A stretch of DNA of 64,000 nucleotides, taken from NCBI GenBank assembly GCA_024742665.1, contig JANSYA010000001.1, positions 186,001-250,000 on the forward strand, in the 5' to 3' direction. The stretch comes from a bacterium. Lineage in GTDB: Bacteria > Spirochaetota > Leptospiria > Leptospirales > Leptonemataceae. The notes under the pieces are model-generated. The model searched no databases. It saw only the letters and a list, made by a program, of their open reading frames with translations, and had not been told where the DNA came from. Below are positions 5,336-57,062 of the stretch, piece by piece. Within the stretch, counting starts at the first letter, position 1, and every line of letters starts with the position of its first letter. A program made the translations under genes and the position numbers.

Positions 5336-5353
5336 GACGCTGCCGCGTTTCGT

Positions 5354-8892: not shown

Positions 8893-9054
8893 TAAGAAAG
8901 CCTTTATTGAGTGTCACAGGTGTCCATCATAACGAGTGGATCCTGTATGATTATTATCGGTTCGGAATTTGAAAAAATAATACGCCGCATGTCGTTCTAT
9001 TACCGTTTGGATTGAGGTGAATCGTGCGCCCCTATCCGGCGGAGACGTCGGATC

Positions 9055-9576: not shown

Positions 9577-9636
9577 AATTAAAAAGCCGTCGCGGAGCGG
9601 CGGAATACGCGCGTGCCGCACATCGCCGGCGCCGAC

Positions 9637-11607: not shown

Positions 11608-11853
11608 TGGTAGCGATATCCGCGGCGACTCTGGCGGCGGCGCTCCCGGTCGAAGGCGTTGGAATCCGCGCCGCTGCGCGGTCCGAAGCAGGAAGCGGAC
11701 CCGGACAGGATTCGACTCCGCTCCGCCAGGGCAAGCGTTTCCAGCGATCGCCGGACTGTCAGAGTCGCCAGGGTTTAGCCTTATGAAAATCGGTCAGGGC
11801 GGTTCGGCCCCGGCGACGTCGGGAAAAAACGAGCTCGTCCGGTCGGAAAACTT
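11608..11853. other. Divergent intergenic region
   Basis: This 246-base space separates two divergently transcribed envelope genes and must hold both promoters. I see no convincing -35/-10 pair, repeat or small gene in it. Confidence 0.35.
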
Positions 11854-13521: not shown

Positions 13522-13571
13522 AGTGGGAAAATACTTGAGAAACGAACCTGGATTGATTTACTTCTGATCGC

Positions 13572-40939: not shown

Positions 40940-41737
40940 TTATGCGTCGATCGTTAGCGCGACGGAGATCAGGGCGATGGAATTTAACACCAGGTGCATG
41001 GCGATCGGTATATACAGCGATCCGCTGCGCCAGCGGGCGACGCCGATGACGATGCCCAAGACGAAGATCGTTACGATGTCGTGGATTTCGTACTGCATGT
41101 GAATGGCGGCCCAGATTACCGCCGGAATCAAAATCGCGCCGGCCGGCCCGACCGGAGAGCGCGAATAACCTTCGAAGACGAAGCCGCGAAACAAGATTTC
41201 TTCCCAGAGCGGCGCCATGATCACAATCGCCGTCGCGAATAAGACCATCGAACCCGCGGTGCGATAGCTTTCTTCGATGAAAGTTGAAGCGACCGGAAAG
41301 TCCAGGAAGTACTTCGCGTAGTCGGCGGCGACCGCGGCGGCGATGCCGATCGCGCACCACAGGGCGAGGGTCTTGAGCGAAACCGGTCGTAGCGCCAGGT
41401 ACTCGCGAACGCCAGGGCCCCGGGTCCAGGCGAAAAACAGCGTAAACAGGATGGCGGCCGGCGCGGTCGTAACGGTTACGATCCCCAGAAAAAATCCGTC
41501 CATCACCATGGCTTCGATCGCTTCGGGAGTGAGATCGCCGCCGGTAGCCTGTACGTAAACGATCAGAACCACGGACTGGAGAATGCCCCAGGCGACGATG
41601 ATGATCAGCGCGAAGAGGCTGGTCAGCCAGAAACCATAGGGGCGCGATTTGCGCAGCGCCTTCGCGTTCGCCGGGTCTTCAGGCGTCGGGGCGATCGCCG
41701 CGTCGGGATTGGCGTAAGGATTCTGGTTTTCGTTCAT
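40940..41737 (-). CDS. CPBP intramembrane metalloprotease
   Basis: A 265-residue membrane protein with about eight hydrophobic segments. The glutamic-type intramembrane protease motifs of the CPBP (Abi/Rce1) family are present: APLWEEILFRGFVFEG (EExxxR), WAAIHMQYE (first His) and AMHLVLNSIAL (second His). Rce1 cleaves prenylated CaaX proteins; bacterial relatives act in bacteriocin self-immunity or membrane protein turnover. Its ATG overlaps the stop of the REC-cyclase-like gene by four bases, so it is the last gene of the chemosensory set. Confidence 0.93.
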   Translation of the reverse strand: MNENQNPYANPDAAIAPTPEDPANAKALRKSRPYGFWLTSLFALIIIVAWGILQSVVLIVYVQATGGDLTPEAIEAMVMDGFFLGIVTVTTAPAAILFTLFFAWTRGPGVREYLALRPVSLKTLALWCAIGIAAAVAADYAKYFLDFPVASTFIEESYRTAGSMVLFATAIVIMAPLWEEILFRGFVFEGYSRSPVGPAGAILIPAVIWAAIHMQYEIHDIVTIFVLGIVIGVARWRSGSLYIPIAMHLVLNSIALISVALTIDA

Positions 41738-43293
41738 GGATTCAGAATTTTCACGGGCGCGTAGGCCTCTGTGCCGGAGATTGTGCGCGCGCTTTCCGCG
41801 AACTCCGTCGAGCCGGCCGCCGCGTCGCGTGTGTTTTGATCGACCAGGCAGCTCGGACAGTCGTCATCGGCTTCGCCGGCTTTCGCTTCGACGATATGCG
41901 CGATCAATTTACGCGCGACGAGCAGCGCGTCGCCGACGAAAGACAGTTCCCGCCGGCGAAAGGAGCCGGCCACGGCCGCCAGCACATCCCCCGTGGCGAT
42001 CCCGATCGCGTAACGGAAAGGCACGTCGGATTGAAAGGGCGCCAGATCCGGATCCACGAACATGTCGAAGTACTGATTCAATTTGATCGCGCAGTGCGTC
42101 GCCTGAGCGGCTCCCTGCGGATCGCCGTCGGGATAGCCGAAGGCGGCGAGCATGCCTTCGCCGCCGATCTCCGCGATCGAGCCGCCCGACGATATCGTCA
42201 TCTCCATCATATCGTTGAGCACGCTGCTCAGGATGCTGGCCGCTTCGCCGTCGGCTTCCGCGAGAAACGCGTCGAAGCCGGCGCTGAGGTCCACGCGCAG
42301 CAGCGTCATCGTCGCGCGATGCACGGGCAGGCGCTCTTCGACTTCCGCGGGGGTGTGTTCTTTTAAGAATTGCGATTTCAGCTCTTCGATGTGCTTCTGC
42401 CCGAAATAGGAGGCGATCATTTGCTGGCAGTAGCCGAGTTCCTGGCGCAAGCGTCCGATGCGATAGCCCTGATTGCGAATGGTCAGCAGCGTCGTTAATC
42501 GCGTGTGCAGTTCGCGCAGCTGCACCGGCACCATTAGAAATTCTTCGACGCCGCATTCGGTCGCCTGCTGCAAAACCGTCTCGTCATAGTCGGGGGTCAA
42601 AAGGATGATCGGAATATCGACCAGATCCGGAGCGGAGCGCAGATCGCGGATCAAAGCCAGAGCGTCGAAGCCGGGATCGGAGTCAGCGGAGCGATGGACC
42701 AGAATCACTCGCGGAGCCCAGGTGCGGATCAATTCGACGGCCGAGGACGGTTCGCGGATGCCGCGCATTTGAATGCCGGTGCGCCGCACGTACTCTTCGA
42801 TCGCTTCGTGCCGGCGCGGATTTTCGTCGATCAAAGCGATGCTCGCTTCCGGCGGCACGCGATGAACGGTATCCTGCAGCGATCGCGCGAAACGGTGGCG
42901 CGTAACGCCCGCGCGAACGCGTCGCCGCAATTCGCGTCCGGACACGCTGCCTTTAACGATATAATCCTGCGCGCCGAGAGACATGCAGCGTCGTTCCGTT
43001 TCCACTTCGCGATTCGAAGTATGCACGATGACGGGTACGTCCAGTCGGCGCGTGGCGATTTGAATAAATGTTTCCAGCCCGTCGCTGTCCGGAAGGCCCA
43101 GATCGAGGATCAGTGCGTCGATGGCGCCGTTCTGGATATAAGACATCCCGGCGGAAAGTCGACCGAGGGCCCGAATGCGAAAGCTCAGGCCGTCCGGTTC
43201 GTCCGGATATTCGCGCAGCAGGTTGTGGCGAATCAGATCGACCGCCATCGGATCGTCTTCCAGCAGAAGAATATTTAGCTCTTGTGGTTCCAA
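41734..43293 (-). CDS. REC-pseudoREC protein with degenerate nucleotide cyclase domain
   Basis: A 519-residue soluble protein. REC1 (about 6-130) is complete: acidic pocket 12-14 (LEDD), phospho-acceptor Asp64 (LILDLGLPDSDG). A second receiver-like unit (about 150-280) lacks the acceptor Asp (RVILVHRSADSDPG) and is probably a pseudo-receiver. The C-terminal part (about 320-500) is a class III cyclase-like domain: first metal Asp is kept in LLRVDLSAGF, but the second is Glu (IGGEGMLAAFG), and the transition-state Asn and Arg positions appear altered (FVGDALLVARKL instead of GDAVNVAAR). It is therefore likely non-catalytic and could bind a nucleotide or another cyclase. Coupled to the CPBP gene. 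Confidence 0.85.
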   Translation of the reverse strand: MEPQELNILLLEDDPMAVDLIRHNLLREYPDEPDGLSFRIRALGRLSAGMSYIQNGAIDALILDLGLPDSDGLETFIQIATRRLDVPVIVHTSNREVETERRCMSLGAQDYIVKGSVSGRELRRRVRAGVTRHRFARSLQDTVHRVPPEASIALIDENPRRHEAIEEYVRRTGIQMRGIREPSSAVELIRTWAPRVILVHRSADSDPGFDALALIRDLRSAPDLVDIPIILLTPDYDETVLQQATECGVEEFLMVPVQLRELHTRLTTLLTIRNQGYRIGRLRQELGYCQQMIASYFGQKHIEELKSQFLKEHTPAEVEERLPVHRATMTLLRVDLSAGFDAFLAEADGEAASILSSVLNDMMEMTISSGGSIAEIGGEGMLAAFGYPDGDPQGAAQATHCAIKLNQYFDMFVDPDLAPFQSDVPFRYAIGIATGDVLAAVAGSFRRRELSFVGDALLVARKLIAHIVEAKAGEADDDCPSCLVDQNTRDAAAGSTEFAESARTISGTEAYAPVKILNP

Positions 43294-43300
43294 TGTGAAA

Positions 43301-43666
43301 TTAGAGGATGTGTTGAGCGATGGCGTCCAGCAGGACGTCCTGGCGAAAGGGCTTTTCCAGCCAGGCTTTAATGCCCTGACTTTTGATTTCCGCTTCGTGT
43401 TCTTTGCCGGACTCGGTAGTCAGCATGATCACCGGCAGGTGCGATTTGCCGTCGGTTTCCCGCAGCCTGGTGACGAATTCCAGTCCGCTCATGCCTTCCA
43501 TATTTACGTCGCAGATGATGAGCGAGAGTTCGTTTTCCTGCGTCGCGTCCAGGCCTTCGGTTCCGTTGCGCGCTTCGATCGGATCGAAGCCGGCTTTTTT
43601 GACCGAAGAGACGACGACTTTGCGAATAAAGTCGGAGTCATCGATTATTAAGATTTTTTTGGACAT
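43301..43666 (-). CDS. CheY-like response regulator (copy 4)
   Basis: A 121-residue receiver domain with Asp9-Asp10 in the acidic pocket, phospho-acceptor Asp53 (ICDVNMEGM), Thr in MLTTESG and Lys in LEKPFRQ, so it should be phosphorylatable. It precedes the REC-cyclase-like gene by 7 bases and follows the membrane coiled-coil gene by 48. Its likely phosphodonor is the CheA of this cluster. Confidence 0.94.
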   Translation of the reverse strand: MSKKILIIDDSDFIRKVVVSSVKKAGFDPIEARNGTEGLDATQENELSLIICDVNMEGMSGLEFVTRLRETDGKSHLPVIMLTTESGKEHEAEIKSQGIKAWLEKPFRQDVLLDAIAQHIL

Positions 43667-43714
43667 CTGAGTTCTCTCCGTGTTCTGGTGGATAATTTTG
43701 CGTTGCTATTGTGT

Positions 43715-44737
43715 TTATGTATGCTGATTGATGTAGCTGATTTGCGCCGAGCTGCGGCTGAGATGTTCGGTCTTATCGTTCACAGTTTCGATCAGGCTGC
43801 GGAGATTTTCCGTAAGCCCCGCGACTTCTTCAATATCGCGGCTGTGCATGCGAATGTGCTGGTCCAGGTCGTGATTCTTTTCTACGTCGACCAGCTCCTT
43901 GATATCCGTCAGTCGGCTCCAGGAGTCGTACGACTTTTCGAATAGCTTCTCGGATAACGAACCCAGCTGGTGGCTCATATGATCCAGTTCGTTCACCAGC
44001 TTTTGCTGAGTCGAAAAGGTGTCTTTTAGCTGCGAAGTCATGCGGACGTTGTTTTCGATCAGCTCTTTAAATACGACGCTGCCGAACATGATCGGCACCA
44101 GCAGAGGCGCCGCCGAACGGATCACTCGCGCGGCGCCGGTCAGGCCGTCGGCGTAGACGCCGTAAATATTACAGAGCTGAACGACGATGATCGAGAGAAA
44201 AGCGATCGATAGCCGCAGGCGGTACTTTTTGCGATGTTTCGCGTTCAGGTAGATGATGTAGGTCAGAACGAGAATGAAATAGATCGAAAACGAAAGCTGG
44301 AACGAAGAATTTTCGAAGAGCATCCCCTCTTTGAATACCGACAGCCAGCTGATTTGAATCGGCGGATAGGCGATGATAATACCGATTACGTTGGTCCAGA
44401 AGAAAGTCTGGAATACGTCTTTGCGCGTGATAAATTCGTAAATAAAAGCGTGGGCGAGGGCCAGCACGACGATCACGAACATGCTGTTCAAAAGCAGCGG
44501 AAAAAACGACTGCGGCGCTTCGATGTCGTAGAAGATCAGCAGGCTGTACGCGACGATCGTCGCGACGTTGATGATCGTAATACTGCTGCAGGCGGTCAGC
44601 TTAAAGATCAAGTCCGCGTTGCGCGTGCGAATATATTCCGCCGTTAGAATATAGATCATCATCAAAAAGAGAACGGCCTGCAAAAAATGCAGAAAGGCCA
44701 GTCCTCCGTTCGATTCCAGGAATTCCAGGAAAGTCAT
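43715..44737 (-). CDS. Multi-spanning membrane protein with coiled-coil tail
   Basis: A 340-residue protein with seven or so hydrophobic helices in its first 230 residues (for example FLQAVLFLMMIYILTAEYI and SMFVIVVLALAHAFIYEF). After them comes a cytoplasmic tail of about 110 residues, strongly helical (LKDTFSTQQKLVNELDHMSH) and reminiscent of the long helices of chemoreceptors but without their methyl-accepting tip. Its ATG overlaps the TauE/SafE gene's stop by four bases. I recognise no family. Placed among CheY-like genes, it could be a receptor accessory protein that inserts into the chemosensory array. Confidence 0.78.
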   Translation of the reverse strand: MTFLEFLESNGGLAFLHFLQAVLFLMMIYILTAEYIRTRNADLIFKLTACSSITIINVATIVAYSLLIFYDIEAPQSFFPLLLNSMFVIVVLALAHAFIYEFITRKDVFQTFFWTNVIGIIIAYPPIQISWLSVFKEGMLFENSSFQLSFSIYFILVLTYIIYLNAKHRKKYRLRLSIAFLSIIVVQLCNIYGVYADGLTGAARVIRSAAPLLVPIMFGSVVFKELIENNVRMTSQLKDTFSTQQKLVNELDHMSHQLGSLSEKLFEKSYDSWSRLTDIKELVDVEKNHDLDQHIRMHSRDIEEVAGLTENLRSLIETVNDKTEHLSRSSAQISYINQHT

Positions 44738-45759
44738 GATCCGGTCGGCCCCCGGGCGCTCTCGTTTTCACCCAGCTTCGCCTGCCGGGCGCGATGCAAT
44801 AAATAGAAGATGCCGACCAGAGCGAAGAACAGCACTGGAGCGAGGATGGTGCTGAAGCCGTCGAATTTTACAATCAGCAGGGTCGAAACGAATTCGACCA
44901 GAATCAAGAAGATCAACATCGCCACGATGCGTTCCCGGGAAATGCCCGCGCAAACGAAGGCGCCGAGCGGGGCTCCGAAGATTACGATCGGCACGCATAC
45001 CAGCCAGTAGTCGAAGGTCGCGCCAGAAAAACTATCCAGGGCGAAGTGATGTACGAAAAACCCGACCGAGGAGTTGATCGCCATCAGCACCACCGACGTG
45101 GGCGTGGCGACCTTTTCGGAAACGTTGAAGTACAGAACCAGCAGCGAAAAGGTTAAAAAGTCCAGACCCGTACCGACGATCGAAGTAAAAATACCGCCCA
45201 GAAATCCGACGCCCATCAGCAGCGAAGCGGTCGTCGTATGATTCGTATATTCGATGTCCTGAAAACGATTCGCGCCGCCGTGATAGCGATTCTCAAGCAT
45301 CAGTACGAAACCGAAAGCCAGAGTGATAATCGTAAACGCGATTTTAGAATAGGCCGGAACCATGTGCGGAGCCACATAAAAGGTTCCGAAGACGATGCCG
45401 CCCGCGCCGCCCAGCGACGAAAATAGAATCGCCCGCTTTACGATCGGCACGCGATAATTCAGAATTACGAGCGAGGCCGCGCCCATGCCGACGGTCTGGA
45501 TCGCCAGGGCGAAGGTTCGCGCGATATTCGGCGGAATCGAAAGGACTTTGGTGAATACGGGGAAGGCCACCGCGCCGCCGCCTTCGGAAGTGGCTCCGGC
45601 GATGAACGAACCGAAGACCATCGTCAAACTCAGGGTCCAGTGCTGGGTGAACAAAAACAAACGGTCCGAGAGAACCATATAGGCTCCCCAGACCCCCAGG
45701 ATGACGAACGAGGGGATAAAATAAAATAAACGATACGAAAGGCTTCCGCGAATATCCAT
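44734..45759 (-). CDS. TauE/SafE-family membrane permease
   Basis: A 341-residue protein with about eight membrane helices and the repeated features of the TauE/SafE (DUF81) family: VFGSFIAGATSEGGGAVAFP in the first half and GVGFLGGIFTSIVGTGLDFL in the second. Family members are linked to sulfite, sulfoacetate or other small anion export. It lies inside the chemosensory operon, with 21 bases to the HAMP protein gene upstream and an ATGA overlap with the coiled-coil membrane gene. A transporter co-translated with sensory proteins may report or relieve its own substrate. Confidence 0.88.
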   Translation of the reverse strand: MDIRGSLSYRLFYFIPSFVILGVWGAYMVLSDRLFLFTQHWTLSLTMVFGSFIAGATSEGGGAVAFPVFTKVLSIPPNIARTFALAIQTVGMGAASLVILNYRVPIVKRAILFSSLGGAGGIVFGTFYVAPHMVPAYSKIAFTIITLAFGFVLMLENRYHGGANRFQDIEYTNHTTTASLLMGVGFLGGIFTSIVGTGLDFLTFSLLVLYFNVSEKVATPTSVVLMAINSSVGFFVHHFALDSFSGATFDYWLVCVPIVIFGAPLGAFVCAGISRERIVAMLIFLILVEFVSTLLIVKFDGFSTILAPVLFFALVGIFYLLHRARQAKLGENESARGPTGS

Positions 45760-45780
45760 AGCCTGTGTGCGACGCCCGCG

Positions 45781-46572
45781 TCAGCTCTGACGAAAGTACT
45801 CCGTGATTTCGCGCATTTTAAGAAAGACGTCTTCCAGATTGCGCACATTCTTGTCGCGCTCTTGCGGCGATTCTTCGTCTTTCAGTTTGCGCGTCAGTTC
45901 AATGCCCGTCGAGCAAGAGCTCTGGATCAGCGTGAGCAGTTCGCGAAAATTCGTGGTGAGGCTGTCCATCACGCGCGAAAGCTGACCGAGTTCGTCGTTG
46001 GTATTCACCTGAAAGCGAATGCCGAGTTCGCCTTCGGAAACCTTGCGCGCGTTCCGGACGATCGACTCCAGAGGCCGCACGATCATGCGGAATAGAATGA
46101 TTACGATGCCGGCCAGCGCCGCGAATACGATCAGGAAGGCCAGGACGGTGCGCTTTTTGGCGCTTTCCAGCGCGGATGCGAAAGGACTCGGCCCGGGAAC
46201 CAATTCCTGCAGCGACGCGTAACCGGCGCTCAGGCCCGTGCGAATATCCTGTTGATTTTTAGCGTTCTTGGGCGCGGTTTCCAGCGATTCGATTTGTTCG
46301 GCCAGGGCCCGGCGACTCTTCGCGCGGTCGGCGCGTTCTTTTAAGAATTGGTCAAAGGCCGCGGGGCCGAGTCGGCGGGCCGCTTCCGCTTTGAGGACCC
46401 ACTGCTCTTCGAGATCGGAAATGCGTTTCGCGTCGGCGAGCATCACCTTCGAAGACGCGCGTTCGCCGCCGACGAACCACAGCAGAGAGACGATGACTAC
46501 CAGGAAGACGGCGAAGGCCGAGCCGAGATAGATGATCGTTCGCAACCAGATGCTGGAGTGATTTTGATTCAT
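45781..46572 (-). CDS. HAMP-domain membrane protein without a methyl-accepting domain
   Basis: A 263-residue protein. Helix 1 (TIIYLGSAFAVFLVVIVSLLW) and helix 2 (TVLAFLIVFAALAGIVIILF) flank a periplasmic helical sensor of about 130 residues (QWVLKAEAARRLGPAAFDQF). A HAMP domain follows (RMIVRPLESIVRNARKVSEGE, then FQVNTNDELGQLSRVMDSL), and a 70-residue helical tail ends the chain. The layout is that of a truncated chemoreceptor lacking the signalling tip. It may act as a dominant partner or adaptor within a receptor array. Confidence 0.88.
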   Translation of the reverse strand: MNQNHSSIWLRTIIYLGSAFAVFLVVIVSLLWFVGGERASSKVMLADAKRISDLEEQWVLKAEAARRLGPAAFDQFLKERADRAKSRRALAEQIESLETAPKNAKNQQDIRTGLSAGYASLQELVPGPSPFASALESAKKRTVLAFLIVFAALAGIVIILFRMIVRPLESIVRNARKVSEGELGIRFQVNTNDELGQLSRVMDSLTTNFRELLTLIQSSCSTGIELTRKLKDEESPQERDKNVRNLEDVFLKMREITEYFRQS

Positions 46573-46615
46573 GGACGCTGCTGTGTGTCTGAGGGGCTGT
46601 GAATCGTTCCGGGGT

Positions 46616-46972
46616 TCAGGCTTTGAGCGCCGCGGCGAATTCCGCTTCGCTGAAAGGTTTAATCAAAACCGCCTGGGCTTTGCCGCGCATCTCTTCGCTG
46701 ATCTGGTCCGCGTAGGATGTAACGACGATGTACTGAAAGCCGGGATCGAATTCGCTGATGCTCTGAATCGCTCCGCCGCCGGTGCCTTCCGCCAGGGCCA
46801 GGTCGGCGATCAGCAGGTCCGGACGAAATTTTTTATAGAGTTCGACGCATTCTTTTTCGGAGTTCGTTTCGCCGACGATTTCATAGCCGGCGGATTCGAG
46901 AAAGCGCCGCTCCATGGCCCGAATAAAAACGGCGTCTTCCATAATCAGAACTTTTCGGTTCGCTGCGGTCAT
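46616..46972 (-). CDS. CheY-like response regulator (copy 3)
   Basis: A 118-residue receiver. The acidic pocket is Glu-Asp (IMEDAVF), the phospho-acceptor Asp sits in LLIADLALAEG, the Ser/Thr switch in VVTSYAD and the Lys in LIKPFSE, so it can be phosphorylated. The segment after the acceptor (LAEGTGGGAI) is longer and Gly-rich compared with CheY. It precedes the HAMP protein gene by 43 bases. Confidence 0.93.
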   Translation of the reverse strand: MTAANRKVLIMEDAVFIRAMERRFLESAGYEIVGETNSEKECVELYKKFRPDLLIADLALAEGTGGGAIQSISEFDPGFQYIVVTSYADQISEEMRGKAQAVLIKPFSEAEFAAALKA

Positions 46973-47020
46973 AATGCTTCCAGTTCAGGTTAGAGTCTTG
47001 CTTGGATAAGCAGGGTGGAG

Positions 47021-47506
47021 TCAGGATTCGGTTAGCTCGAATGCGTACAAAATACGCAGTGCCGCTTCGGGCCCTGCCAGGGTGATAGACTTCGTCCTGC
47101 TTGTTGCTTCGTCAATCAAATCCGCGTACTTTTTAATCTGCGGGACTTTGATCATAGAGCTCGCCGAGTTTCGCATTTGCACTACGATGTCCCCGATGAT
47201 GAAATTCAGGAGTTCTCCGACAGTATTGGCGCGCAGATCCGCGTCGATCTCGGCGGAGTCGAATTCGCGCTCCATGGCCTTTGAAAGCACCAGTCGGGCG
47301 ATGTGCCCGGCGGCGTCCTGATTCAGGGCGATGGCGATATAGCCGTGCAGGCCGCCTTCGATGGCCAGGCTGATCGCCAGAGCGTCCGGGCCGGGCGTAT
47401 TGGAAGGCGACTCGTGGGTGCGCTCCAGACGCAGGTCCGCCTGGATATCGAAGGTCTTGATGACGCTGTCGAGAATGATGCTGTGGTGGCGTTCGAGAAT
47501 TTCCAT
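47021..47506 (-). CDS. cheX: CheX-like CheY-phosphatase
   Basis: A 161-residue CheX/CheC-family protein. The active-site helix TVGELLNFIIGDIVVQM supplies the conserved Glu and Asn (E-x-x-N) that position water for dephosphorylation of CheY-P. The rest alternates strands and helices as in CheX, and no second E-x-x-N helix is seen, so it resembles CheX (dimer) rather than CheC. The ATG directly abuts the stop of CheY copy 2. With CheA's fused domain, this operon encodes two phosphatases of this class. Confidence 0.9.
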   Translation of the reverse strand: MEILERHHSIILDSVIKTFDIQADLRLERTHESPSNTPGPDALAISLAIEGGLHGYIAIALNQDAAGHIARLVLSKAMEREFDSAEIDADLRANTVGELLNFIIGDIVVQMRNSASSMIKVPQIKKYADLIDEATSRTKSITLAGPEAALRILYAFELTES

Positions 47507-47869
47507 TCAACCCCCCGTCGCGTGAATCATCGTTTCGCGAATCTTGTCTTTGGAAAAAGGTTTTACGATGAATTCGCTGGCTCCCAGATCGATCGACCGG
47601 CGGATATATTCTTCTTCGCCCATGCTGCTGACCATGATGACGACCGCGCCCGGATCGATCTCTTTGATCTTTTGAAGCGCGTCGATTCCGTTCAATTCGC
47701 CCACCAGGGAGATGTCCATGGTTACGGCGTCCGGACGCTTCTCGCGGAAAACGCGAATCGCATCTTCTACGGATTCCGCTTCGCCGATGATCTCAAACGA
47801 TCCTTTGAGCGCGTCTTTGATCATCATGCGTATAAAAGCCGCGTCGTCTACTACCAGTATCCTTTTCAA
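47507..47869 (-). CDS. cheY: CheY-like response regulator (copy 2)
   Basis: A 120-residue receiver and the closest to classical CheY here: VVDDAAFIR, acceptor Asp in VTMDISLVG, Ser in MVSSMGE, Lys in VKPFSKD. It lies directly next to cheX with no intergenic bases, so it is the natural first substrate for that phosphatase. The output target (flagellar switch or another protein) cannot be told from sequence. Confidence 0.95.
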   Translation of the reverse strand: MKRILVVDDAAFIRMMIKDALKGSFEIIGEAESVEDAIRVFREKRPDAVTMDISLVGELNGIDALQKIKEIDPGAVVIMVSSMGEEEYIRRSIDLGASEFIVKPFSKDKIRETMIHATGG

Positions 47870-47896
47870 AGCTATAGTCTCCGTCGTTCGTTGCGA

Positions 47897-48280
47897 TCAG
47901 CTCAGCGCGTTGCAGGCGGCTTCGATGATTTTTTCTTGTGTAAATGGTTTCACTATGAATTCGAACGCGCCCATGTGTACGCATTCGCGAATTAAATCCG
48001 GAATGTCTACGGCGGAAACTACAATCACTCTGGCGTGCGGATTTTTTTCGAGCAGGCGGTCCAGCGCGATCAAACCGTTCATCTGCTCCATGATGATATC
48101 CATAAATACGAGATCCGGGTGATAGAGCGCGAACTGTTGCAGCAATTCCACGCCGTTCTCCGCTTCGTAGATATCGCCGAAGCGCAAGTCCTGTACGTGT
48201 CGCTTAATCATATGCCGGATGAAGTACGCGTCGTCCGCGATCAGCAGGCTGCGTTCCGGAAATGCGCGCGGAGCTTCCAT
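47897..48280 (-). CDS. CheY-like response regulator (copy 1)
   Basis: A 127-residue receiver: IADDAYFIR acidic pocket, acceptor Asp in VFMDIIMEQMNG, Ser in VVSAVD, Lys in VKPFTQE. It starts 18 bases after cheA's stop, the nearest receiver to the kinase gene. Confidence 0.94.
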   Translation of the reverse strand: MEAPRAFPERSLLIADDAYFIRHMIKRHVQDLRFGDIYEAENGVELLQQFALYHPDLVFMDIIMEQMNGLIALDRLLEKNPHARVIVVSAVDIPDLIRECVHMGAFEFIVKPFTQEKIIEAACNALS

Positions 48281-48298
48281 GAATCGCTTCCGAATCCC

Positions 48299-51200
48299 TC
48301 AGGACTGACGTCCTCCTGCGGATTTGCGATGCAATTGAATCAATTTCTGGAAGCCGTCCGAGCCCGGCATGATATAAAAATAGAACAGCGTGTTTTCGCC
48401 GTCTAATTTGAATTCAGTTTCGATTACCAGAGTGGGATGCGATTCGTCGGCGTGTTTCAGCAGACCGTGATCGAAGACCTGTGCGTACTCCGGCACGTGC
48501 ACCGGCGCCGAAGGCAGGATGCGCGCGCCGGCGATTTTGCTCATGGCGTTCGTAAAAGAAACCGCCATTAAATTCGTAACTTCCCGAATCGCCGAAATGG
48601 TTTCCGGACCGGCTGTCTGAAAGCGATCGGGATCGTACATCATACCGGCCAATTGTACCAAATTGCGTTCGTCGATGAGTAAGAGCATATTGCCCTGTAA
48701 TTCCTGCGCCAGGCTTACGTAGAACGCGTGGGCGCCGGACTCCGGGAAGGCCCGCGTCAGTCCGGCTCGCAGACGACTCAAAGATTGAATCCGGGTTTCG
48801 CTGAATTGAATATCGATCGTCGCGCTCTGCGCCACCGAGCGAACCGCCTGAATCGCGGCGGCGCGCCCTTCGCGGATCATCGCTTTAATGATCGAGAGGT
48901 CGGCCTTCGCCATCGTAAAGGCCGCGCTGCGCTGCGGCTCCTGCTCGGCGGGTTTCGTCCTGGAGCCTGGAGCGGGTTGCGATGTCGGGGCGGCTGAAGC
49001 CGTGGGAGTAGACGCGACGGCCGCTTTGTTTTCCGGCGCGGGCGGGGCGACGGACTGCGCAACCGACGGCGCGCTGGCGGGCGTTCCGGAATCGGGACCA
49101 GGACTCGGGGCGGTAGCATCTGTATTCTTGCGGTCGCCGTTTTTCCCGTTGGCCGCGCGATCCGCGACAAGCGAACCGCCGTTGCCGATGAAGCTGTCAA
49201 TCAGACGCTGGGCGTCGAGGATCAAACAGATTTCGCCGCGACCGAGGATGGCGGCGCCGGCCAGGCCTTCGATTTCTTCGTAGTTGCGGGCCAGGGATTT
49301 GATCACCATGTCTTCGTAGCCGATTAGATCGTCGACCAGCAGACCCACCCGATCTCCGCGGTACTGGACGATAACGACCGGCTTTTTCGACGATCGCGAT
49401 TGGACGCGCCGCGCCGGTCGCAGAGCTGCCGCGACCATGCCGGCCGAATATTCGTCGGCGCTCTGGGTCGGCATTTCAGACAGACCGATTTCGCGGGCCA
49501 GTCGAACCAACGATACGTGTTCTTCGCGCACTTCCACGACTTCGCGATGTTCGATTTCCCGAATGCCCAATTGTTCGTCGACTTTGATCGTTTCGAGAAT
49601 GGCGTTGATCGGAATCGCGTAGAGGCGGTCGTGAATTAATACCTTGAGCGCCGTGACGATGGCCAGCGACAGGGGCAGTTGAATGCGAAAGCGCGAACCT
49701 TTGCCCTGAGTGGATTGAATTTCGACCTGGCCGTTGATCGATTCAATATTGCGCCGGACAACGTCCATGCCCACTCCGCGTCCGGACAGGTCGGTGACTT
49801 TTTCGGCCGTGCTGAAGCCGGGTTGAAAGATCAGCTCGAAGACTTCGCTGTCGTTCAGCTTAAGCGCCTCGGCTTCCGGAATCAGTTCGCGTTCAATCGC
49901 GCGATTGCGAATGCGTTCGACGTCCAGACCCTTGCCGTCGTCTTCCACTTCGATATAGATATGATTGCCGGCCTGATAGCTGTTCAGACTCACGATGCCG
50001 GTGTCGGATTTGCCCGCGGCGATGCGGTCTTCCCGGGACTCAATGCCGTGGTCGATGGAATTGCGCACGAGATGCAGCAGCGGATCGTAGATCATATCGA
50101 TCTGCGTCTTGTCGACTTCGGTGTCTTCGCCGCGCACGTTGAGCGTGACGGATTTTTCAGGATGATTGGCGTTGAAATCCCGGACCAGGCGGCGAAAGCG
50201 CGAAAACACGGTGCCGACCGGAATCATCCGGACCTTCATGACCTTCTCCTGCAATTCCGCGGAAATCCGTCCGAGCTGTTCGGAGTTTTCGCGGAAGTTT
50301 ACGAAGAGTCCGCGGTTGCCGTGCTTCGCGCGAAACTCGGAGGCCAGAGCCATATAATGCGAATTCGCGGAGAGCAATTCGCCGACCAGATTCAACAGGT
50401 CGTCGATTTTGCGCACCGGAACCCGCAGCGCGTCGAGGGATTCGCGCATACTCGAAGAAGCTCCGCCGCCGTCGCGCGAAGCGCCGTTCGGATTGCCGGC
50501 GACCTTCGATGTGTCCGAGTCGCCGGTGGCGTCCGACACATCGAAGAGCGTCTCGCTTACTGTGTCATCGGCGGACAGTTCCGCCGGAGTAGAATCGGCC
50601 GCGGCCGGTTCAATCGAAATCGTTTCGATTTCCAGGCTGCGCACGCCGGCTTCCAGATCCGACTGCGTCGCCGCCGTGAGCAATATAAATTCCAGCGCGC
50701 CGGTGAAATCGGCCGCGTCGTATTGTTCGACTTCCGGGCTTTCGCTTTTGATTTCGCCGAATTCGTCGATTTTGCGCCGGAGCAGATAGGCCCGCGCGCC
50801 GGGCAGGGCTGTGCCCGATTTGAGCTGGATTTGAATGCGAAAGAGAGTTTCTTTCGAGGCCGTTTCGTCCGCCTCTTCGCCGGCGGCTTGCGAAGCAGCC
50901 TGAGCCTTCTGCTGGGATTCGCCGCCGGCCAGAAAGGCGGCGATCCGTCCCGCCAGAGCGTCGACGGGAATTTCAGTGGCGGCCGGATCGTTTTCGGCGA
51001 AGGCGGCCAGAATCTTGCGCAGCACGTCCCCGGCTTCGAGCAGCAGGCCCGCCATACCCGGTTCCAGGCGGATCAGGTCGTCGCGCAGCTGCGCGAACAG
51101 GCTCTCCACCGCGTGCGAGAGATCGACCATATTGTCGAGTCCCACGAAGCCCGCGTTGCCTTTAATCGTATGAGCGACGCGAAAGATCTTATTCAGCAAT

Positions 51201-51310
51201 TCCTTGTCATCGGAGTGCCCTTCGAAATCCAGCAGGGCGTCGTCGTACTGCTGGAGGCGGTCGGCGACTTCCGTCACAAAGGCTTCTATTTCGGCTTCTT
51301 CAAGATCCAT
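48299..51310 (-). CDS. cheA: CheA histidine kinase fused to a CheC-like phosphatase domain
   Basis: A 1003-residue protein. HPt domain (1-110) has phospho-accepting His47 (RVAHTIKGNAGF). Residues about 150-240 form a probable CheY-binding P2-like module. The dimerisation P3 (about 285-350: VRKIDDLLNLVGELLSANSH), the HATPase (about 360-550: HLVRNSIDHGIES, DDGKGLD, GRGVGMDVVRR) and a CheW-like P5 domain (about 555-700) follow. After an Ala/Pro-rich linker (about 725-800) is an extra C-terminal domain (about 820-1000) whose helix AIREVTNLMAVSFTNAMSK carries the E-x-x-N signature of CheC/CheX phosphatases. Kinase and phosphatase in one chain is unusual. It is co-oriented with cheW, globin and MCP. 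Confidence 0.95.
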   Translation of the reverse strand: MDLEEAEIEAFVTEVADRLQQYDDALLDFEGHSDDKELLNKIFRVAHTIKGNAGFVGLDNMVDLSHAVESLFAQLRDDLIRLEPGMAGLLLEAGDVLRKILAAFAENDPAATEIPVDALAGRIAAFLAGGESQQKAQAASQAAGEEADETASKETLFRIQIQLKSGTALPGARAYLLRRKIDEFGEIKSESPEVEQYDAADFTGALEFILLTAATQSDLEAGVRSLEIETISIEPAAADSTPAELSADDTVSETLFDVSDATGDSDTSKVAGNPNGASRDGGGASSSMRESLDALRVPVRKIDDLLNLVGELLSANSHYMALASEFRAKHGNRGLFVNFRENSEQLGRISAELQEKVMKVRMIPVGTVFSRFRRLVRDFNANHPEKSVTLNVRGEDTEVDKTQIDMIYDPLLHLVRNSIDHGIESREDRIAAGKSDTGIVSLNSYQAGNHIYIEVEDDGKGLDVERIRNRAIERELIPEAEALKLNDSEVFELIFQPGFSTAEKVTDLSGRGVGMDVVRRNIESINGQVEIQSTQGKGSRFRIQLPLSLAIVTALKVLIHDRLYAIPINAILETIKVDEQLGIREIEHREVVEVREEHVSLVRLAREIGLSEMPTQSADEYSAGMVAAALRPARRVQSRSSKKPVVIVQYRGDRVGLLVDDLIGYEDMVIKSLARNYEEIEGLAGAAILGRGEICLILDAQRLIDSFIGNGGSLVADRAANGKNGDRKNTDATAPSPGPDSGTPASAPSVAQSVAPPAPENKAAVASTPTASAAPTSQPAPGSRTKPAEQEPQRSAAFTMAKADLSIIKAMIREGRAAAIQAVRSVAQSATIDIQFSETRIQSLSRLRAGLTRAFPESGAHAFYVSLAQELQGNMLLLIDERNLVQLAGMMYDPDRFQTAGPETISAIREVTNLMAVSFTNAMSKIAGARILPSAPVHVPEYAQVFDHGLLKHADESHPTLVIETEFKLDGENTLFYFYIMPGSDGFQKLIQLHRKSAGGRQS

Positions 51311-51374
51311 ACCCGGGTTTATTTAGAGCGAGACAACGGCGGCAGCGTGCCGCGTGCGACTCGCCCGCGGTCGT

Positions 51375-51890
51375 TTAGCCGCGCGTTTCTTCCACGTCCG
51401 ATAGTGTGATGTCGTCCAGCGATAGAATCTCGTCGACGGAAAGCACGCGGGCGATGTCGAGTAGAATCAGAACGCGTTTTTCTACTTTGGCGATGCCCGT
51501 AATATATTCCGCCGATGCGTTGCGCGAAACGGTAACCGGCGCCTTTTCGATTTGTCCGGGGGCCAGGGTGATGACTTCGGCGACGTTGTCGACGATCATG
51601 CCGCACATGCGGTTTTCGATTTGCCCGATCAGAATACGCGTGAATTTCGAATAGGCCTGGGCGGGCAGTCCGAATTTTACGCGCAGGTCGACGATCGGAA
51701 TGATTTCGCCGCGCAGGTTGATGACGCCTTTCACATATTCCGGGCGCCGGGGTAGCCAGGTAATGGGAGTGCGGCGGATGATTTCCTGCACTTTTAGAAT
51801 CTCAATGCAGTATTCTTCGTCCGCGATATTAAACACGACGTACTGCTGACTGAGGGGCGCCTCGCCCGTGATTGTCCCTTGCTGTTGCAC
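51375..51890 (-). CDS. cheW: CheW-family coupling protein
   Basis: A 171-residue CheW that links chemoreceptors to CheA. Conserved features are QYVVFNIADEEYCIEI, VQEIIRRTPITWLPRRPEYV, GVINLRGEIIPIVDLR and a C-terminal VDEILSL helix. It lies between the globin gene and cheA, in the normal place for a chemosensory operon. No unusual insertion. Confidence 0.95.
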   Translation of the reverse strand: MQQQGTITGEAPLSQQYVVFNIADEEYCIEILKVQEIIRRTPITWLPRRPEYVKGVINLRGEIIPIVDLRVKFGLPAQAYSKFTRILIGQIENRMCGMIVDNVAEVITLAPGQIEKAPVTVSRNASAEYITGIAKVEKRVLILLDIARVLSVDEILSLDDITLSDVEETRG

Positions 51891-51917
51891 CTGGATTTAC
51901 TCGTTGTATAGATCGGT

Positions 51918-52322
51918 TTAGTAGAGTTCGGTGAAGCGGTTGATCGTTTTGGCGATGACTTCTTCCCAGGCCGCGCGAACTTCCGGAGAGTAGCGCGGGT
52001 CGTGCTTTTCGATCGTTTCCAGCAGGCTCTGCACCCAGAAGCGATACATATCCGGTTTTACGTTGACGTGACTTTTATCATGGAGCTGCCCGATGCGTTC
52101 GATGGCCAGCTTGCCGTTTTCGTTGGCCGCGCCGTACAGCAAAAGAAAGGAGATGCCTTCGCGCAATAAGTCCTGCTGCTTGCGCATGTCGGTCTTGGCG
52201 AAGATCTGCGGAATTTCCGGATTGCTCGCGAAGAAAGTTTCGTAAAAGTCCGTAAAGAAATTTTTAACGAGGGCGCAACGTCCGAAGCTTTCGCGCGCGG
52301 TTTGCAGGGAATCTGATGCCAT
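51918..52322 (-). CDS. Stand-alone globin of the chemosensory operon
   Basis: A 134-residue single-domain globin. Proximal His81 sits in IERIGQLHDKSHVNVKPDMY, aligned with the proximal His of flavohaemoglobins (ERIAQKH) and followed by the tell-tale pattern YRFWVQSLLETIEKHDP and AAWEEVIAKTI. Helices A-E are RESFGRCALVKNFFTDFYET and NPEIPQIFAKTDMRKQQDLL, the usual core for haem binding; the region around Gln49-Gln50 should carry the distal ligand. No reductase or signalling domain is attached. Sitting 51 bases after the MCP stop and 27 before cheW, it is probably an oxygen, NO or CO sensor working in trans, an inference from position. Confidence 0.88.
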   Translation of the reverse strand: MASDSLQTARESFGRCALVKNFFTDFYETFFASNPEIPQIFAKTDMRKQQDLLREGISFLLLYGAANENGKLAIERIGQLHDKSHVNVKPDMYRFWVQSLLETIEKHDPRYSPEVRAAWEEVIAKTINRFTELY

Positions 52323-52373
52323 CTGATATATGCTCCTGTGTATTTTGAATTCTATATGGCGTAAACGGCCGGA

Positions 52374-54824
52374 TTAGATTTCCGTCCCTTTGTTTTCGCC
52401 GGTACCGCTCAGGGTAAAGCGCGCCAGGCGCGTGCGCAGTTCAGCGGCGCGTTCCGCCAGGGAAGAGGCGCGATCTTTGTTGCCCTGCACGTTGCGCAGG
52501 TTTGTTTCGGCTTCTTTGGTTACGTTGGCGATAGCGTTGGAAATCGCGGTCACACGCTCTTTCTGACTGCCGGCGATTTCCTGGGCGTTGTCGGCTTTGC
52601 TCGTAATGTCGACGGTGATATTCGTTACGGACTGAAAGGCGCGAATCTGATTACTGACCGTTCCAAAAATACGTCCGGAGAGCTGTACGATTCCGTTGAT
52701 GGCCGCCCGCACGATTTCCGCGTTCGCCGCCTGGGTTTCTACTTTCGCGTTCACCTCGGTCGATAGCGTCTGCACCCGTTCGAAGGTCGAGAGCATTTCG
52801 CCGGCCCGGCCGGCGTTCGCCGCGCCGATTTCCTGAATCTTATTAACGCTCGTCGTCGTCGCCTGACTGGAAGATTTAATTTCCTGAAGAGCGGACTTCA
52901 CGTTTTCAGTCAGCATGGTTCCTTCCTGAACCCGCTGGATGTTCTCGCGAATATTCTGCGCGATTTCGCTGGCGGCTTCCGCCGAGCGTTCCGCCAGTCC
53001 GCGAACGGCCTCGGCCACGACCGCGAAGCCCTTGCCGTATTCGCCGGCCCGGGCCGCCTCGATGGCGGCGTTCAGCGATAGCAGGTTGGTCTGGTCGGTG
53101 ATGTCGGTGATCGTATCGATGATCTCGTTGATCTGTTTCGAAGATTCGTTGATGGCGTCGATGGCCTGAATCATCTCTTCGAGAACCTTCTCGCCGTTTT
53201 CGACGGAATTCAGCGCCTGGCCGGCCTGTTCGTTGGCGGTCTGCGCCGAGTGCGATACTTCGCTGGCGGACTCGCGCACGACGCTGGCGATATCGATCGC
53301 TTTCTGCGCTTCCGCGGACATGCTCTCCGCCGAATCTGAAATCGAATCGCCGACGCGGTTTAAGTCCTTCATTTCCGCCAGCGTCGCCTGAGAAGTGCAG
53401 CTCTGCTCTTCGGTATAGGCCGCGTTTCGCAGGGACGCCATAAAGTTCGTGTCCATCTCGGTGCGCGCATAGCCCGCGGCGCCGTGCACCATTTCGACGT
53501 TCTCGACGACTTTCGCCGCATTTGAGACGATATCCGCCAGAATCTTCTCCGCGTTATTGGCGTTTTCCATCTGGCGTTCGGTAGCTGTCAGGACGTTGCC
53601 GGCGTTCGCGTTGATTTGATCCGAGGTCTCGCCGAGCTGATTCGATACGACGCGAATCTGGGCGATGATTCCGCTGAGTTCCCGCATGAACGAGTTGAAA
53701 CCTTTCGAGATCTGGCCGATTTCATCGTTTGAATCGACCGCGACCTGGCGGCTCAGGTCCCCCTGGGAAGCAGCCTGGAAGGCGTCGAGCAGTCCGCTTA
53801 CGTCTCTGAGCAGACGGCCGACTACTAAAAATCCCAGCACGCCGGCCGCCATAAAAGCGGCAAGTACGAGAGCGATGTTGAAATACAATCCCAGAGTGGC
53901 TTCGCTCTGGCGATCCACCAGCTTCTGATCGAGGATCGGCGCGATCTCATCGTAGTCGGCCCAGTAGGGGGAGATGATCGCTGTAGAGCGTTTGAAGATT
54001 TCGGTGCCCGAGATGCTAATGTCCTCGGCGTTCTTGTTAATGATTTCGCGTTGAATCAGGTTCGCGAAATTCGCGACATCCGCGTTTCGGCTCTGCATAT
54101 CTTTCAGCGCTTTAATATCCGTATTGTAAATCAAAGCCTCTTGAATATAGCCCTGCTGGGTGCGCTGGGCGAACTGCAATTCGAAGATCAGAAATTCTAA
54201 GCGTGCCTGTTGCTCCGGGGTCTTGCGTTTGCTGGCCGCGATGGCGCCGGAAATTCCGCGGATCTGTCCCATCTCCTCCAGCAGCGGCGGCGCGCCGAGG
54301 GTTACGATGGTCATGAGCGTATAGCTGGGAAGGTCGCCGTCGAGAATCAAGTTCGAGGTATCCGAAATTTTCCGGATCATGGCGACCAGGCTTTCGTTAA
54401 GGTCGGTGTGTTTGCGCCAGCTTTCTTCCGGAGGCATTTCCCGCGAGCTGTCCAGCAGGGTCTGGGTGAGTTTGCGCAGGCGTTCGGACTCCTCTTTGAC
54501 TTCCAGCTCCGCCCCGTACAGCTCTTCGACTTCGGCGACTTTCTTGAGCTGCTCGACGGCGCGGACTCGAAAATCTTTCAGCTTGCTTTCATTCTCTGTA
54601 GCGCCGCCAAGCACAAGGGCCATGGTTCCGCGATGCAGCTGCATGGTCTGGTTCAGCGGGGCGATGGCTTCGATGTAGCGAATCCCGTGGACCTCTTTTT
54701 GAATGAACGAGATCACCGAGGCGTTGATCGTCGTGAACAGCTGGTAGATCAAAAACAAAGACGCCGCGATCAAAATCGCCGCGACCATTCCCAATTTTTG
54801 TCCAAGCTTAAGCCGCTTTAACAT
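52374..54824 (-). CDS. Methyl-accepting chemotaxis protein
   Basis: An 816-residue chemoreceptor. Helix 1 (about 10-30) and helix 2 (about 315-335) enclose a large helical periplasmic sensor. HAMP (about 335-390) leads into a long signalling domain with the conserved hairpin tip [20 protein letters not shown] followed by [18 protein letters not shown]. Between about residues 440 and 500 there is an unusual stretch ([20 protein letters not shown], then [20 protein letters not shown]) that breaks the expected coiled-coil pattern. A strong AGAAGG precedes the ATG. No CheR-binding pentapeptide is seen at the C-terminus, in line with the lack of cheR and cheB nearby. Confidence 0.95.
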
Positions 54825-54965
54825 TCCCTTCTCCCGACGGCGATTTACAGCTGCTTTTTAGCCGCCGCGCGTCGCCGTCCTGCTCGGGCCTTCCGGTATT
54901 CAGAGCCCTGTGTTCCTTATCGGACGAGACGGCCCCGTTCCCGCATTATTTTGTGAGTGTGAAAA

Positions 54966-57062
54966 TTACGACTGCGCGGAGTCGCTTTGCTTACGGAATC
55001 GTAACTGTTTCCCGGCTGAAATCAGATCGTAGACCCGACGAAATTCATCGTTGGGAACGCGACCTTCGGGGTCCGCCGAAAATTGTTTTCGCAAGCGTTC
55101 GACGAAGTACATGTCGACGGCGCCTTTGCCTTTGGCCTGCACGCGTCCCCGGTATTTACACTTAAAGAAGTACTGGGCCTGCTCGTAAATCGCGCCGGAG
55201 ATGTTGACTTCGCCGGGTGTGCCGGACGATTCCATGCGACTGGCGGTGTTCACTGTGTCGCCCCATATATCATAGGCGAATTTGTTTTTCCCGACCACGC
55301 CGGCCATCACGCCGCCGCAGTGCAGGCCGATGCGAATTTGCCAGAAATCTTCGTTCGCGGCCTGCTTGACCATCGCCATCTGATTCATGAAGTCGCGGAA
55401 TTCGAGCGCGGCCAGCACCGAATCGATGCGATGGGTGCGGCTGAGTTCGGGCAGACCGCCGCAGCACATATAGGCGTCGCCGATCGTCTTGAGTTTTTCC
55501 AGGCCGTGCCTGGCGATAATTTCATCGAATTGAGTGAAGCAACCGTCCAGTTCCTCGACCAGCTCGATCGGCGACATGGTCTCGGCGATCGAAGTAAAGC
55601 CGACGAAGTCCGTGAATACGACCGACACCGATTCATAAACCATCGGCTCGACGCTGCCGCGCTCTTTCAGTTCTTGCGCGACGGAAGCCGGCAGCACGTT
55701 TTGCAGCAGACGTTCCGACTGCTCTCGCTCCGCTTCGACCCGGGACATCAAATTGGAGTTATGCAGGGCGCCTTTGATTTGATCGCAAAAACGGTACAGC
55801 CGCCCGAGATCCGACTCGGGCAAATTCACGCCGCCCTGGCGGACCCAGAGCATACACAGAATCGCCACGACCTGGTTGTCGGCGATCAGCGGAATTTGCA
55901 AACAGCCGGTGATAGCCAGATCCCGGGCAATGCGCTTCTCCAGTTCGTTCGCGTTGTGCAGATGGCTACCCACGTGGCGAATGGTCAGAGGCCGCCGGTG
56001 GCTGAACGGATAATAAATCGAAGAGCCGCCGATTTCGATCGGAGTGCGAAACTCGTTCAGGAAAGTCGTGGTCTCTTCCGGCAGCTGCATGGCGAAGGCG
56101 TACGAGGATCCTTTCGTAAAGATTTCGCCCGTGTCCTGGTCGATGCTCAGCAGCCAGACGCCGTCGGTATCGAAACTGAAAATCAAGTGCGTGAGAATCT
56201 GGCGGATGACGCCGTCGACGTCGCGTTCTTCGTTGAGTTTGCGCGAAAATTCGTTGAGCTTGTCGGTTTCGTTGAGCGCCCGCTCCAGGCCGGACTTCGC
56301 GCTTTGCAGCTCGCGAGTGCGCTCGAAGACCCGCTGTTCGAGCGTGCGGTTGGTTTCTTCAAGCTGGCGGCGCGCTTCCCGGAGTTCGGCTCCGCTCTGA
56401 GCGACTTCCGACGAAAGCGCGAGTTCGCGCTGACTGCGCCCGCTTTCCCGGGCGATCGCCAGCTCTTCCGACAGAGATTGATCGCCCGGCGTGATTTCGA
56501 CCCGCACCCCTGCGATCGACTGATTGTCTTCGTCCGGGATCAGGGTTTCCCCGGCCTGGCAACCCGTGCCGAATACCAGCGAAAAGACGCCGGTCAGTTT
56601 GCCGCATAAGAAGGGACAGCCCCAGCGTTCTTCTTCCGGCTGCGATAGCTGGAGCAGCAGCTCCCAGGGCCCAACGACTCGTAAGACGGCCCGGGGCGCG
56701 GAGTAATCGATCGATTCGAGTTCGAGGGATTCCCACCAGCCGGCGCGCCGGCCTTCGGCGGACCACTTCTGTAAACCCTCCACGAAATTCTGCTCGCCCA
56801 GGTCCAGAATTAAGTCGTGGTCGAGTCGCCCGTCTTCGCTGACCGCGGCGGCGACGGCCCGGGCGAAGACCTCCGGGCCGGTTTCCTGAGCCAGGGTTTC
56901 GACCAAATTCATCAGGCTGGGTTTGAGCCAGAAAGACACTACCTCGCGATCGAAGACGGTCGCGTGCTCCGGTGGCTTCCGATCGGCAGTCGAACCCGTT
57001 GCGGCGTCCGTATTCGATAGGCCGGGGTTCGTGGGAGATGTATTGGAACTTTGCGTTTCCAT
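54966..57062 (-). CDS. V4R-GAF adenylate cyclase
   Basis: A 698-residue soluble class III cyclase. The N-terminal part (about 35-195) ends WGCPFLCGKLTGVFSLVFGT, similar to V4R domains that bind small ligands or metals through cysteines (as in XylR/BchJ-type proteins). A coiled coil (about 205-275) precedes a GAF domain (about 275-440) and a cyclase domain (about 480-665). Metal Asp is kept in VVFTDFVGFT and IGDAYM; Lys in LKTIGDAYM and Asp in YDIWGDTVN indicate ATP, and NTASRMES holds Asn and Arg, so it should make cAMP. The domain order parallels the 1045-residue cyclase at 5755-8892. It lies 141 bases ahead of the MCP on the same strand. Confidence 0.9.
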   Translation of the reverse strand: METQSSNTSPTNPGLSNTDAATGSTADRKPPEHATVFDREVVSFWLKPSLMNLVETLAQETGPEVFARAVAAAVSEDGRLDHDLILDLGEQNFVEGLQKWSAEGRRAGWWESLELESIDYSAPRAVLRVVGPWELLLQLSQPEEERWGCPFLCGKLTGVFSLVFGTGCQAGETLIPDEDNQSIAGVRVEITPGDQSLSEELAIARESGRSQRELALSSEVAQSGAELREARRQLEETNRTLEQRVFERTRELQSAKSGLERALNETDKLNEFSRKLNEERDVDGVIRQILTHLIFSFDTDGVWLLSIDQDTGEIFTKGSSYAFAMQLPEETTTFLNEFRTPIEIGGSSIYYPFSHRRPLTIRHVGSHLHNANELEKRIARDLAITGCLQIPLIADNQVVAILCMLWVRQGGVNLPESDLGRLYRFCDQIKGALHNSNLMSRVEAEREQSERLLQNVLPASVAQELKERGSVEPMVYESVSVVFTDFVGFTSIAETMSPIELVEELDGCFTQFDEIIARHGLEKLKTIGDAYMCCGGLPELSRTHRIDSVLAALEFRDFMNQMAMVKQAANEDFWQIRIGLHCGGVMAGVVGKNKFAYDIWGDTVNTASRMESSGTPGEVNISGAIYEQAQYFFKCKYRGRVQAKGKGAVDMYFVERLRKQFSADPEGRVPNDEFRRVYDLISAGKQLRFRKQSDSAQS

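Follow-up and report, generated by a model that had tools for sequence, protein, structure and literature searches.

The 64-kb window analysed here (the whole stretch of DNA, 64,000 nucleotides; G000:C9:186001-250000) comes from a Leptonemataceae genome, G000, of 6.03 Mb in 26 contigs (93% complete), and holds a chemosensory locus built around a CheA kinase, most of whose 14 genes form a conserved cassette. As an earlier note on this DNA had described, 14 open reading frames (ORFs) all lie on the minus strand, from a GAF-cyclase gene (54966-57062) through a gene for a receiver (REC)-pseudoREC-cyclase-like protein (41734-43293). The domains it claimed are likewise present: Guanylate_cyc, MCPsignal with HAMP in a methyl-accepting chemotaxis protein (MCP), Globin, CheW, CheA, four single receivers, CheX, a HAMP-only protein and TauE; one membrane protein of the stretch has no Pfam family. 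Read from the cyclase to the REC-cyclase-like gene, the junctions measure 141, 51, 27, 64, 18, 27, 0, 48, 43, 21, -4, 48 and 7 bases, so that the spacing is below 70 bases at 12 of 13 junctions, the exception being cyclase/MCP. Three 4-base overlaps had been claimed, but the longest starts give one inside the stretch, between TauE and the seven-transmembrane (7TM)/coiled-coil protein, and one of 4 bases at its edge, between the REC-cyclase-like gene and a CPBP protease gene (40940-41737).

Twelve of these genes, at 43301-54824 on the minus strand, make up the conserved core, in the order MCP-globin-CheW-CheA-REC1-REC2-CheX-REC3-HAMP-TauE-7TM/coiled coil-REC4. We searched for CheA over 48 genomes of the class and read the gene content of 20 loci, one of which was partly out of view. 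Comparison of synteny within the class showed that the gene order is largely kept in two other genera, G008 and G042, both recorded as Leptospiraceae metagenome-assembled genomes (MAGs). G008 carries all 12 genes over two contigs: MCP, globin and CheW, followed by the contig end, at L221, and the series from CheA through REC1, REC2, CheX, REC3, HAMP, TauE and 7TM to REC4 at L082. G042 carries the first ten genes, from MCP to TauE, at L081; the 7TM and REC4 genes were not seen behind TauE there. The sequence beyond the core differs. In G008 a divergent STAS gene and then a DUF1577/PilZ gene (L221, G008:C293, 3585-5251 plus) lie 5′ of the MCP and a phosphoglucomutase gene 3′ of REC4, while in G042 TauE is followed by a haemerythrin gene (9218-9667 minus) and a REC-HD_5 gene (9749-10801 plus; L081). 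The earlier note had counted the cyclases as members of the unit, which does not hold, since G008 has no cyclase at either end (the 5′ end of G042 is not visible); because the flanks in G008 and G042 differ, the cyclases at both ends are local neighbours and not part of the core.

The distal part of the core could in principle be a loose neighbourhood, in which membrane and receiver genes of no related function stand by chance behind a chemosensory core from MCP to CheX. That 7TM and REC4 were not found behind TauE in G042 would fit this, as would a TauE in the genome G030 that stands outside any che context, but the HAMP and TauE genes stand behind REC3 in all three genomes, with products 24-62% identical to the window's and gaps of at most 43 bases. 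Moreover, a search of the class with TauE gave any match in 7 of 48 genomes and a strong one (E under 1e-70) in 4, namely the three cassette carriers and G030. We regard a chance assembly as very improbable. The G030 gene (L262, G030:C33, 427-1452 minus; product 41% identical to the cassette's) is divergent beside genes read as fliO/P/Q/R (flagellar export).

A wider spread of the cassette was considered and rejected: among the best 80 of 410 CheA relatives on GTDB contigs, which were kept for neighbour reading, globin, TauE, HAMP or CheX neighbours occurred only in MAGs matching G008 and G042. Among metagenome proteins, 17 TauE sequences (own included) score at least 325 bits and the next 283, and the sister-species relatives of the globin and of a receptor stretch are 87-88% identical (three matches for the globin and two for the receptor stretch, the query counted in each).

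Table 1. Genes of the chemosensory stretch and its edges (positions in the window)
Feature	Position	Strand	Remarks
GAF + class III cyclase, flanking	54966..57062	-	outside the conserved core
MCP receptor, 816 aa	52374..54824	-	hydrophobic 11-29, outer NIT-like (predicted) ~30-316, hydrophobic 317-335, HAMP 334-384, signalling hairpin
Single-domain globin, 134 aa	51918..52322	-	closest solved relative PA3967 (1tu9)
CheW adaptor	51375..51890	-	Pfam
CheA, 1003 aa	48299..51310	-	Hpt (His47), P2, H-kinase_dim, HATPase, CheW-like, CheC-type tail 804-991
REC1 single receiver	47897..48280	-	phosphorylation site complete
REC2 CheY-like single receiver	47507..47869	-	extra residue past the phospho-Asp
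CheX phosphatase	47021..47506	-	Pfam 31.5 bits, cut-off 27
REC3 single receiver	46616..46972	-	domain match, phosphorylation site
HAMP-only protein	45781..46572	-	two hydrophobic helices, short outer loop, HAMP, 50-aa tail, no output domain
TauE/SafE-family membrane protein	44734..45759	-	domain match
7TM/coiled-coil membrane protein	43715..44737	-	~7 hydrophobic helices, C-terminal coiled coil
REC4 single receiver	43301..43666	-	kept in G008
REC - degenerate REC - degenerate cyclase-like, flanking	41734..43293	-	outside the conserved core
CPBP-family (Rce1-like) membrane protease	40940..41737	-	start overlaps the preceding stop by 4 bases; outside 41734-57062

The phospho-acceptor histidine and the ATP-binding motifs are conserved in the cassette CheAs. 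A tree of 44 CheA cores was built from 29 loci (the best 30 matches less the own copy), three further CheAs of G000, which holds four, eleven GTDB sequences and the window copy, other CheA matches being left out. The three cassette CheAs form one branch (support 100/100), with G042 as a long branch, inside a 31-row Leptospirae clade (100/98) that takes in every Leptospirae row used except the own CheAs of L013 and L014. The ordinary CheA of G000 (C9:1.29 Mb, in a CheW-CheA-CheB-CheY cluster) lies elsewhere in the same clade, and support is lower (92/80) for placing the cassette CheA as sister to those of other families. By classification, then, the cassette CheA groups with the CheC-fused Leptospirae CheAs on a branch apart, and the tree strongly supports its being a paralogous, separate branch of them.

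The extra phosphatase domain that the earlier note had assigned to CheA is borne out in part. The tail aligned over its whole length, 804-991, with the NCBIfam CheC model (E 3.4e-10), but it stays below the cut-offs, with 20.1 bits for Pfam CheC against a cut-off of 22 and an NCBIfam score also far under the curated one. ExxN is the active-site motif of the CheC/CheX phosphatases; one such motif, read by eye, is present in the CheA tail and kept in all three genera, as is the ExxN motif of the separate CheX. The fusion had also been thought special to this system, which it is not: the ordinary CheA of G000 bears a CheC-type tail as well (Pfam CheC 26.4 bits), and the available text of PMC10782961, from which we take the class name F1, describes the CheA-CheC/CheX fusion for Leptospirae F1 CheAs and suggests a dual kinase/phosphatase. 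We therefore treat it as a known part.

Genome-wide family searches placed no CheR and no CheB methylesterase in the window, as had been reported from the window itself. In addition, tblastn with eight of the genome's own CheR, CheB and CheD proteins matched only with the receiver part of CheB, the matches to the window reaching query residue 144 and one weak chained alignment 211; the contigs of G042 and G008, searched with the same eight proteins, likewise gave the CheB receiver part only. By contrast, the suggestion that the organism lacks adaptation enzymes failed. The genome-wide search gave three CheR (C3, C13 and C21) and four CheB (two on C13, one each on C9 and C21), and at least one CheD is present on C13, where it was identified in L013. 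The clusters on C13 and C21 carry CheA, CheR and CheB, and the ordinary CheW-CheA-CheB-CheY cluster on C9 has a CheB of its own. The CheR on C3 and one CheB on C13 are orphans, apart from any CheA. None of these cheR, cheB and cheD genes adjoins the cassette.

We considered the orphan CheB as a dedicated partner and rejected it, because the proteins of G008 and G042 that match it best reach only 39-40% identity, and that over the catalytic part alone. No cheR or cheB partner that tracks the system was found, the orphan CheB having been tried for this and not the orphan CheR. What stands of the earlier view of the locus as an unorthodox unit is that it is without its own CheR, CheB and CheD, has two phosphatase-type modules bearing ExxN and four single receivers with intact phosphorylation sites, and keeps its order in three genera; the cyclases fall outside it and the fusion is not special to it.

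The che cluster at L014 (G000:C21:3000-22000; 3867-13759 minus) encodes CheR-TPR, a double CheW, a dCache-type MCP (Pfam below cut-off), CheA-REC and CheB, a layout that we take to be Wsp-like. The gene at its end encodes REC plus a class III cyclase (Guanylate_cyc E 1.7e-52), not REC-GGDEF.

We scored methylation sites in 24 receptors, L018 and L035 being dropped (tip pattern absent), with the consensus generally known for such sites. The cassette receptor shows no strict match to it at a distance of 95-115 residues from the tip, a region where 14 of 21 comparable receptors of G000 have one, and the usual offsets lack a strict site in all three cassette receptors. Because five other own receptors also have no strict consensus, this deficit is suggestive only. 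We dropped complete loss of the sites as a firm conclusion: with Cys allowed, a conserved site is found in all three receptors at -116, where the motif [AST]A[YF][ST]EEQxC[TA] keeps the heptad spacing of the usual sites at -109 and -102 (in the window MCP, residues 468-477 of the signalling helix, with EEQxC at 472-476). This EEQxC site may be a last remaining place for methylation, or else a redox element.

The main rival to a cassette that resets without methylation is methylation in trans, in which shared CheR and CheB made elsewhere would serve the array; candidates are the two orphans (CheR on C3, CheB on C13) and the CheB encoded in the ordinary cluster. The numbers of these enzymes in G000 make it feasible; G042 encodes a CheB and a CheR together on one contig, apart from the cassette, and a strict site stands at -168 in its receptor. 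Since the near-consensus Glu pair at -116 is kept, the receptors could still be modified in this way. However, the usual offsets are empty of strict sites, the receptor C-terminus has no CheR-binding tail (judged by eye against the usual motif), and neither G008 nor G042 encodes a close counterpart of the orphan CheB. On balance we regard methylation in trans as somewhat unlikely.

The signalling arm of the receptor is also unusual in length. The F1 class is usually paired with 44H receptors. With the hairpin tip at Glu589, the arm past the tip has about 213 residues, against about 160 in aligned 44H-like receptors of G000, and is thus about 53 longer; this fits the 58H class by length alone, a class listed in the available text of PMC6943060.

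In a structure model, the outer domain of the receptor has a fold resembling NIT, the nitrate/nitrite sensor domain. Its identity to NasR (4akk) is 13%, a PDB sequence search with it gave nothing useful, and the Pfam NIT scores in the genome search were 19.7 and 22.1 bits, with no further Pfam NIT match in G000, G008 or G042. NasR uses two arginines; the invariant Arg65 lies near the first of these by offset, whereas for the second we saw no invariant equivalent. That the domain is private to the cassette receptor was tested and rejected: other receptors of the class, including one in G008 (C124), are 22-26% similar in the outer part, and one of them, at L222, has a weak Pfam NIT match.

His81 of the globin aligns with the histidine of 1tu9 that we take to be the proximal one, and it is kept in the window, in G008 and in a sister-species protein (P0005). 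In G042, where the globin has lost the haem ligand, a haemerythrin gene adjoins the cassette. The 7TM/coiled-coil protein is conserved in G008; its structure model is poor (predicted local distance difference test score, pLDDT, 61).

On the output side, all four single receivers of the window have complete phosphorylation sites, and the acidic pair, Asp, Ser/Thr and Lys are kept for REC1-REC3 in three genera and for REC4 in two. REC2 is the most CheY-like of them. Leaving orthologues aside, it matches best, in G000, the receiver that stands behind CheB in the ordinary cluster (39%) and, in G008, a receiver on C108 (42%). Relative to ordinary CheY, REC2 and both of its orthologues have a one-residue insertion past the phospho-Asp.

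The flanking cyclase genes raise the question of a different output, with cyclic AMP (cAMP) as the product, both cyclases as effectors and a target other than the flagellum. The class III cyclase directly upstream, on the same strand, keeps its catalytic motifs, which resemble those of a second own cyclase; the gene directly downstream, also on the same strand, encodes a REC protein whose cyclase domain is degenerate, and another che cluster of G000 ends in a REC-cyclase gene. Against these stand the 141 bases that separate the upstream cyclase from the MCP, the degeneracy of the REC-linked cyclase domain, and the neighbours found instead in G008 (STAS and phosphoglucomutase) and in G042 (haemerythrin and REC-HD). 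A cAMP operon was rejected as cyclases are not conserved in G008 and, with 63 matches to the cyclase query, cyclase neighbours are common in G000; we regard a cAMP output as quite improbable. So many matches to a class III cyclase in a genome of 6 Mb, of which a few cover just the N-terminal half of the query, point to a large cAMP-type repertoire.

Taken together, these observations are compatible with an accessory, energy-taxis-like kinase cassette that is reset mainly by dephosphorylation instead of receptor methylation, a reading in which our confidence is evenly balanced. From its domains, the cassette is likely to sense nitrogen oxides or oxygen. The receptor is predicted to drive CheA, and its NIT-like domain may read nitrate, nitrite or another small anion outside the cell, while the globin, where its haem ligand is kept, would report oxygen or nitric oxide inside, probably via the receptor or CheW. 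On this input side, TauE and the HAMP-only protein would be membrane partners. Phosphorylated CheA would pass phosphate to REC2, which likely touches the flagellar switch, and also to REC1, REC3 and REC4, which may act as sinks or side outputs. Phosphorylated CheY (CheY-P) bound to the CheC-type tail of CheA itself would cut the signal short at its source, as local negative feedback, and removal of phosphate by the CheA tail and the separate CheX likely does the resetting job of methylation; in this sense we infer phosphatase-based adaptation.

Several findings weigh against this reading. For the receptor, the model was computed from 4 sequences, has a predicted template-modelling score (pTM) of 0.41 and treats the outer domain within the receptor, not alone; Pfam NIT (PF08376) gives the isolated domain 23.7 bits (23.4 in G008) against a gathering threshold of 24.9, is not listed in the whole-receptor Pfam scan and was not found in the partial outer domain of G042; and, given the likeness of its outer part to that of further receptors in the class, the cassette may not be alone in having this domain. 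Among the accessory proteins, the globin of G042 has neither His81 nor any Pfam Globin match, its HAMP-only protein has no Pfam HAMP match and is 24% identical to the window's, and the CheX of both G008 and G042 is under the Pfam cut-off. As for methylation, we infer its absence in a genome with three CheR and four CheB. Of the 21 other receptors of G000, two have strict sites elsewhere and five have none at all, the G042 receptor has its one strict match at -168, and all three cassette receptors keep the near-consensus Glu pair at -116, where Cys takes the place of one small residue. Finally, as the ordinary CheA shares the fusion, the fusion alone cannot account for the missing enzymes.

A stricter version of the same idea is unlikely: a methylation-free array in which the NIT domain and an exchangeable globin feed one kinase with a built-in CheY-P phosphatase, a single CheA molecule then performing both excitation and reset. 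The globin would then be replaceable by other oxygen carriers, as the lost haem ligand and adjoining haemerythrin gene of G042 may suggest.

New here are the NIT-like outer fold predicted for the receptor and the globin haem histidine, kept in two lineages and lost in a third. No description of the cassette was found in the open-access literature, to which the search was confined; nor did the searches there, not all of them aimed at the question, find an NIT-type receptor, a free globin and TauE on one kinase. If the reading of reset by dephosphorylation is right, the cassette would offer a natural, small and conserved gene set for asking whether phosphatase feedback alone adapts a chemosensory array, in a test case where kinase and phosphatase are on one polypeptide, and it would link one kinase with a receptor of NIT type, a free globin and a membrane protein of the TauE family. 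Leptospirae have a second, differently equipped branch of CheC-fused CheA.

Around the locus, promoter-like sites in the stretch show no excess (5 against 6.8 in shuffles), terminator-like sites number 31 against 20.9 (standard deviation 4.9), most of them on the plus strand and the minus-strand ones inside genes, and the CPBP protease gene may share a transcript with the last gene of the stretch, given their 4-base overlap.

The cassette resembles the ordinary Leptospirae F1 cluster in the domain order of CheA, CheC-type tail included, in the clade to which this CheA belongs, and in the likeness of that cluster's receiver after CheB to REC2 (39%); it differs in having no CheB and in having a receptor, a globin, a separate CheX, four receivers and membrane genes. 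Bacillus subtilis has methylation-independent adaptation through CheC, CheD and CheV (PMC340952; compare PMC3513319), which shows that resetting of this kind with CheY feedback can work as a design (PMC340952). A CheC-type protein with CheY-P feedback is proposed as the kinase reset in both systems, whereas the cassette fuses the CheC-type domain to CheA and has neither CheD nor CheV, and its adaptation is predicted from the genes. Unlike the domain of NasR (4akk) and other NIT receptors, the NIT-like domain of the cassette would lie outside the membrane on an MCP, at the low identity given above. As in HemAT and the PAS-globin MCP system of Corallococcus, the latter as far as the available text of PMC6194562 describes it, a globin is tied to a chemoreceptor kinase; in that text the Corallococcus cluster has CheB and CheR, whereas the cassette has neither, and its globin is a separate, soluble, PA3967-like protein.

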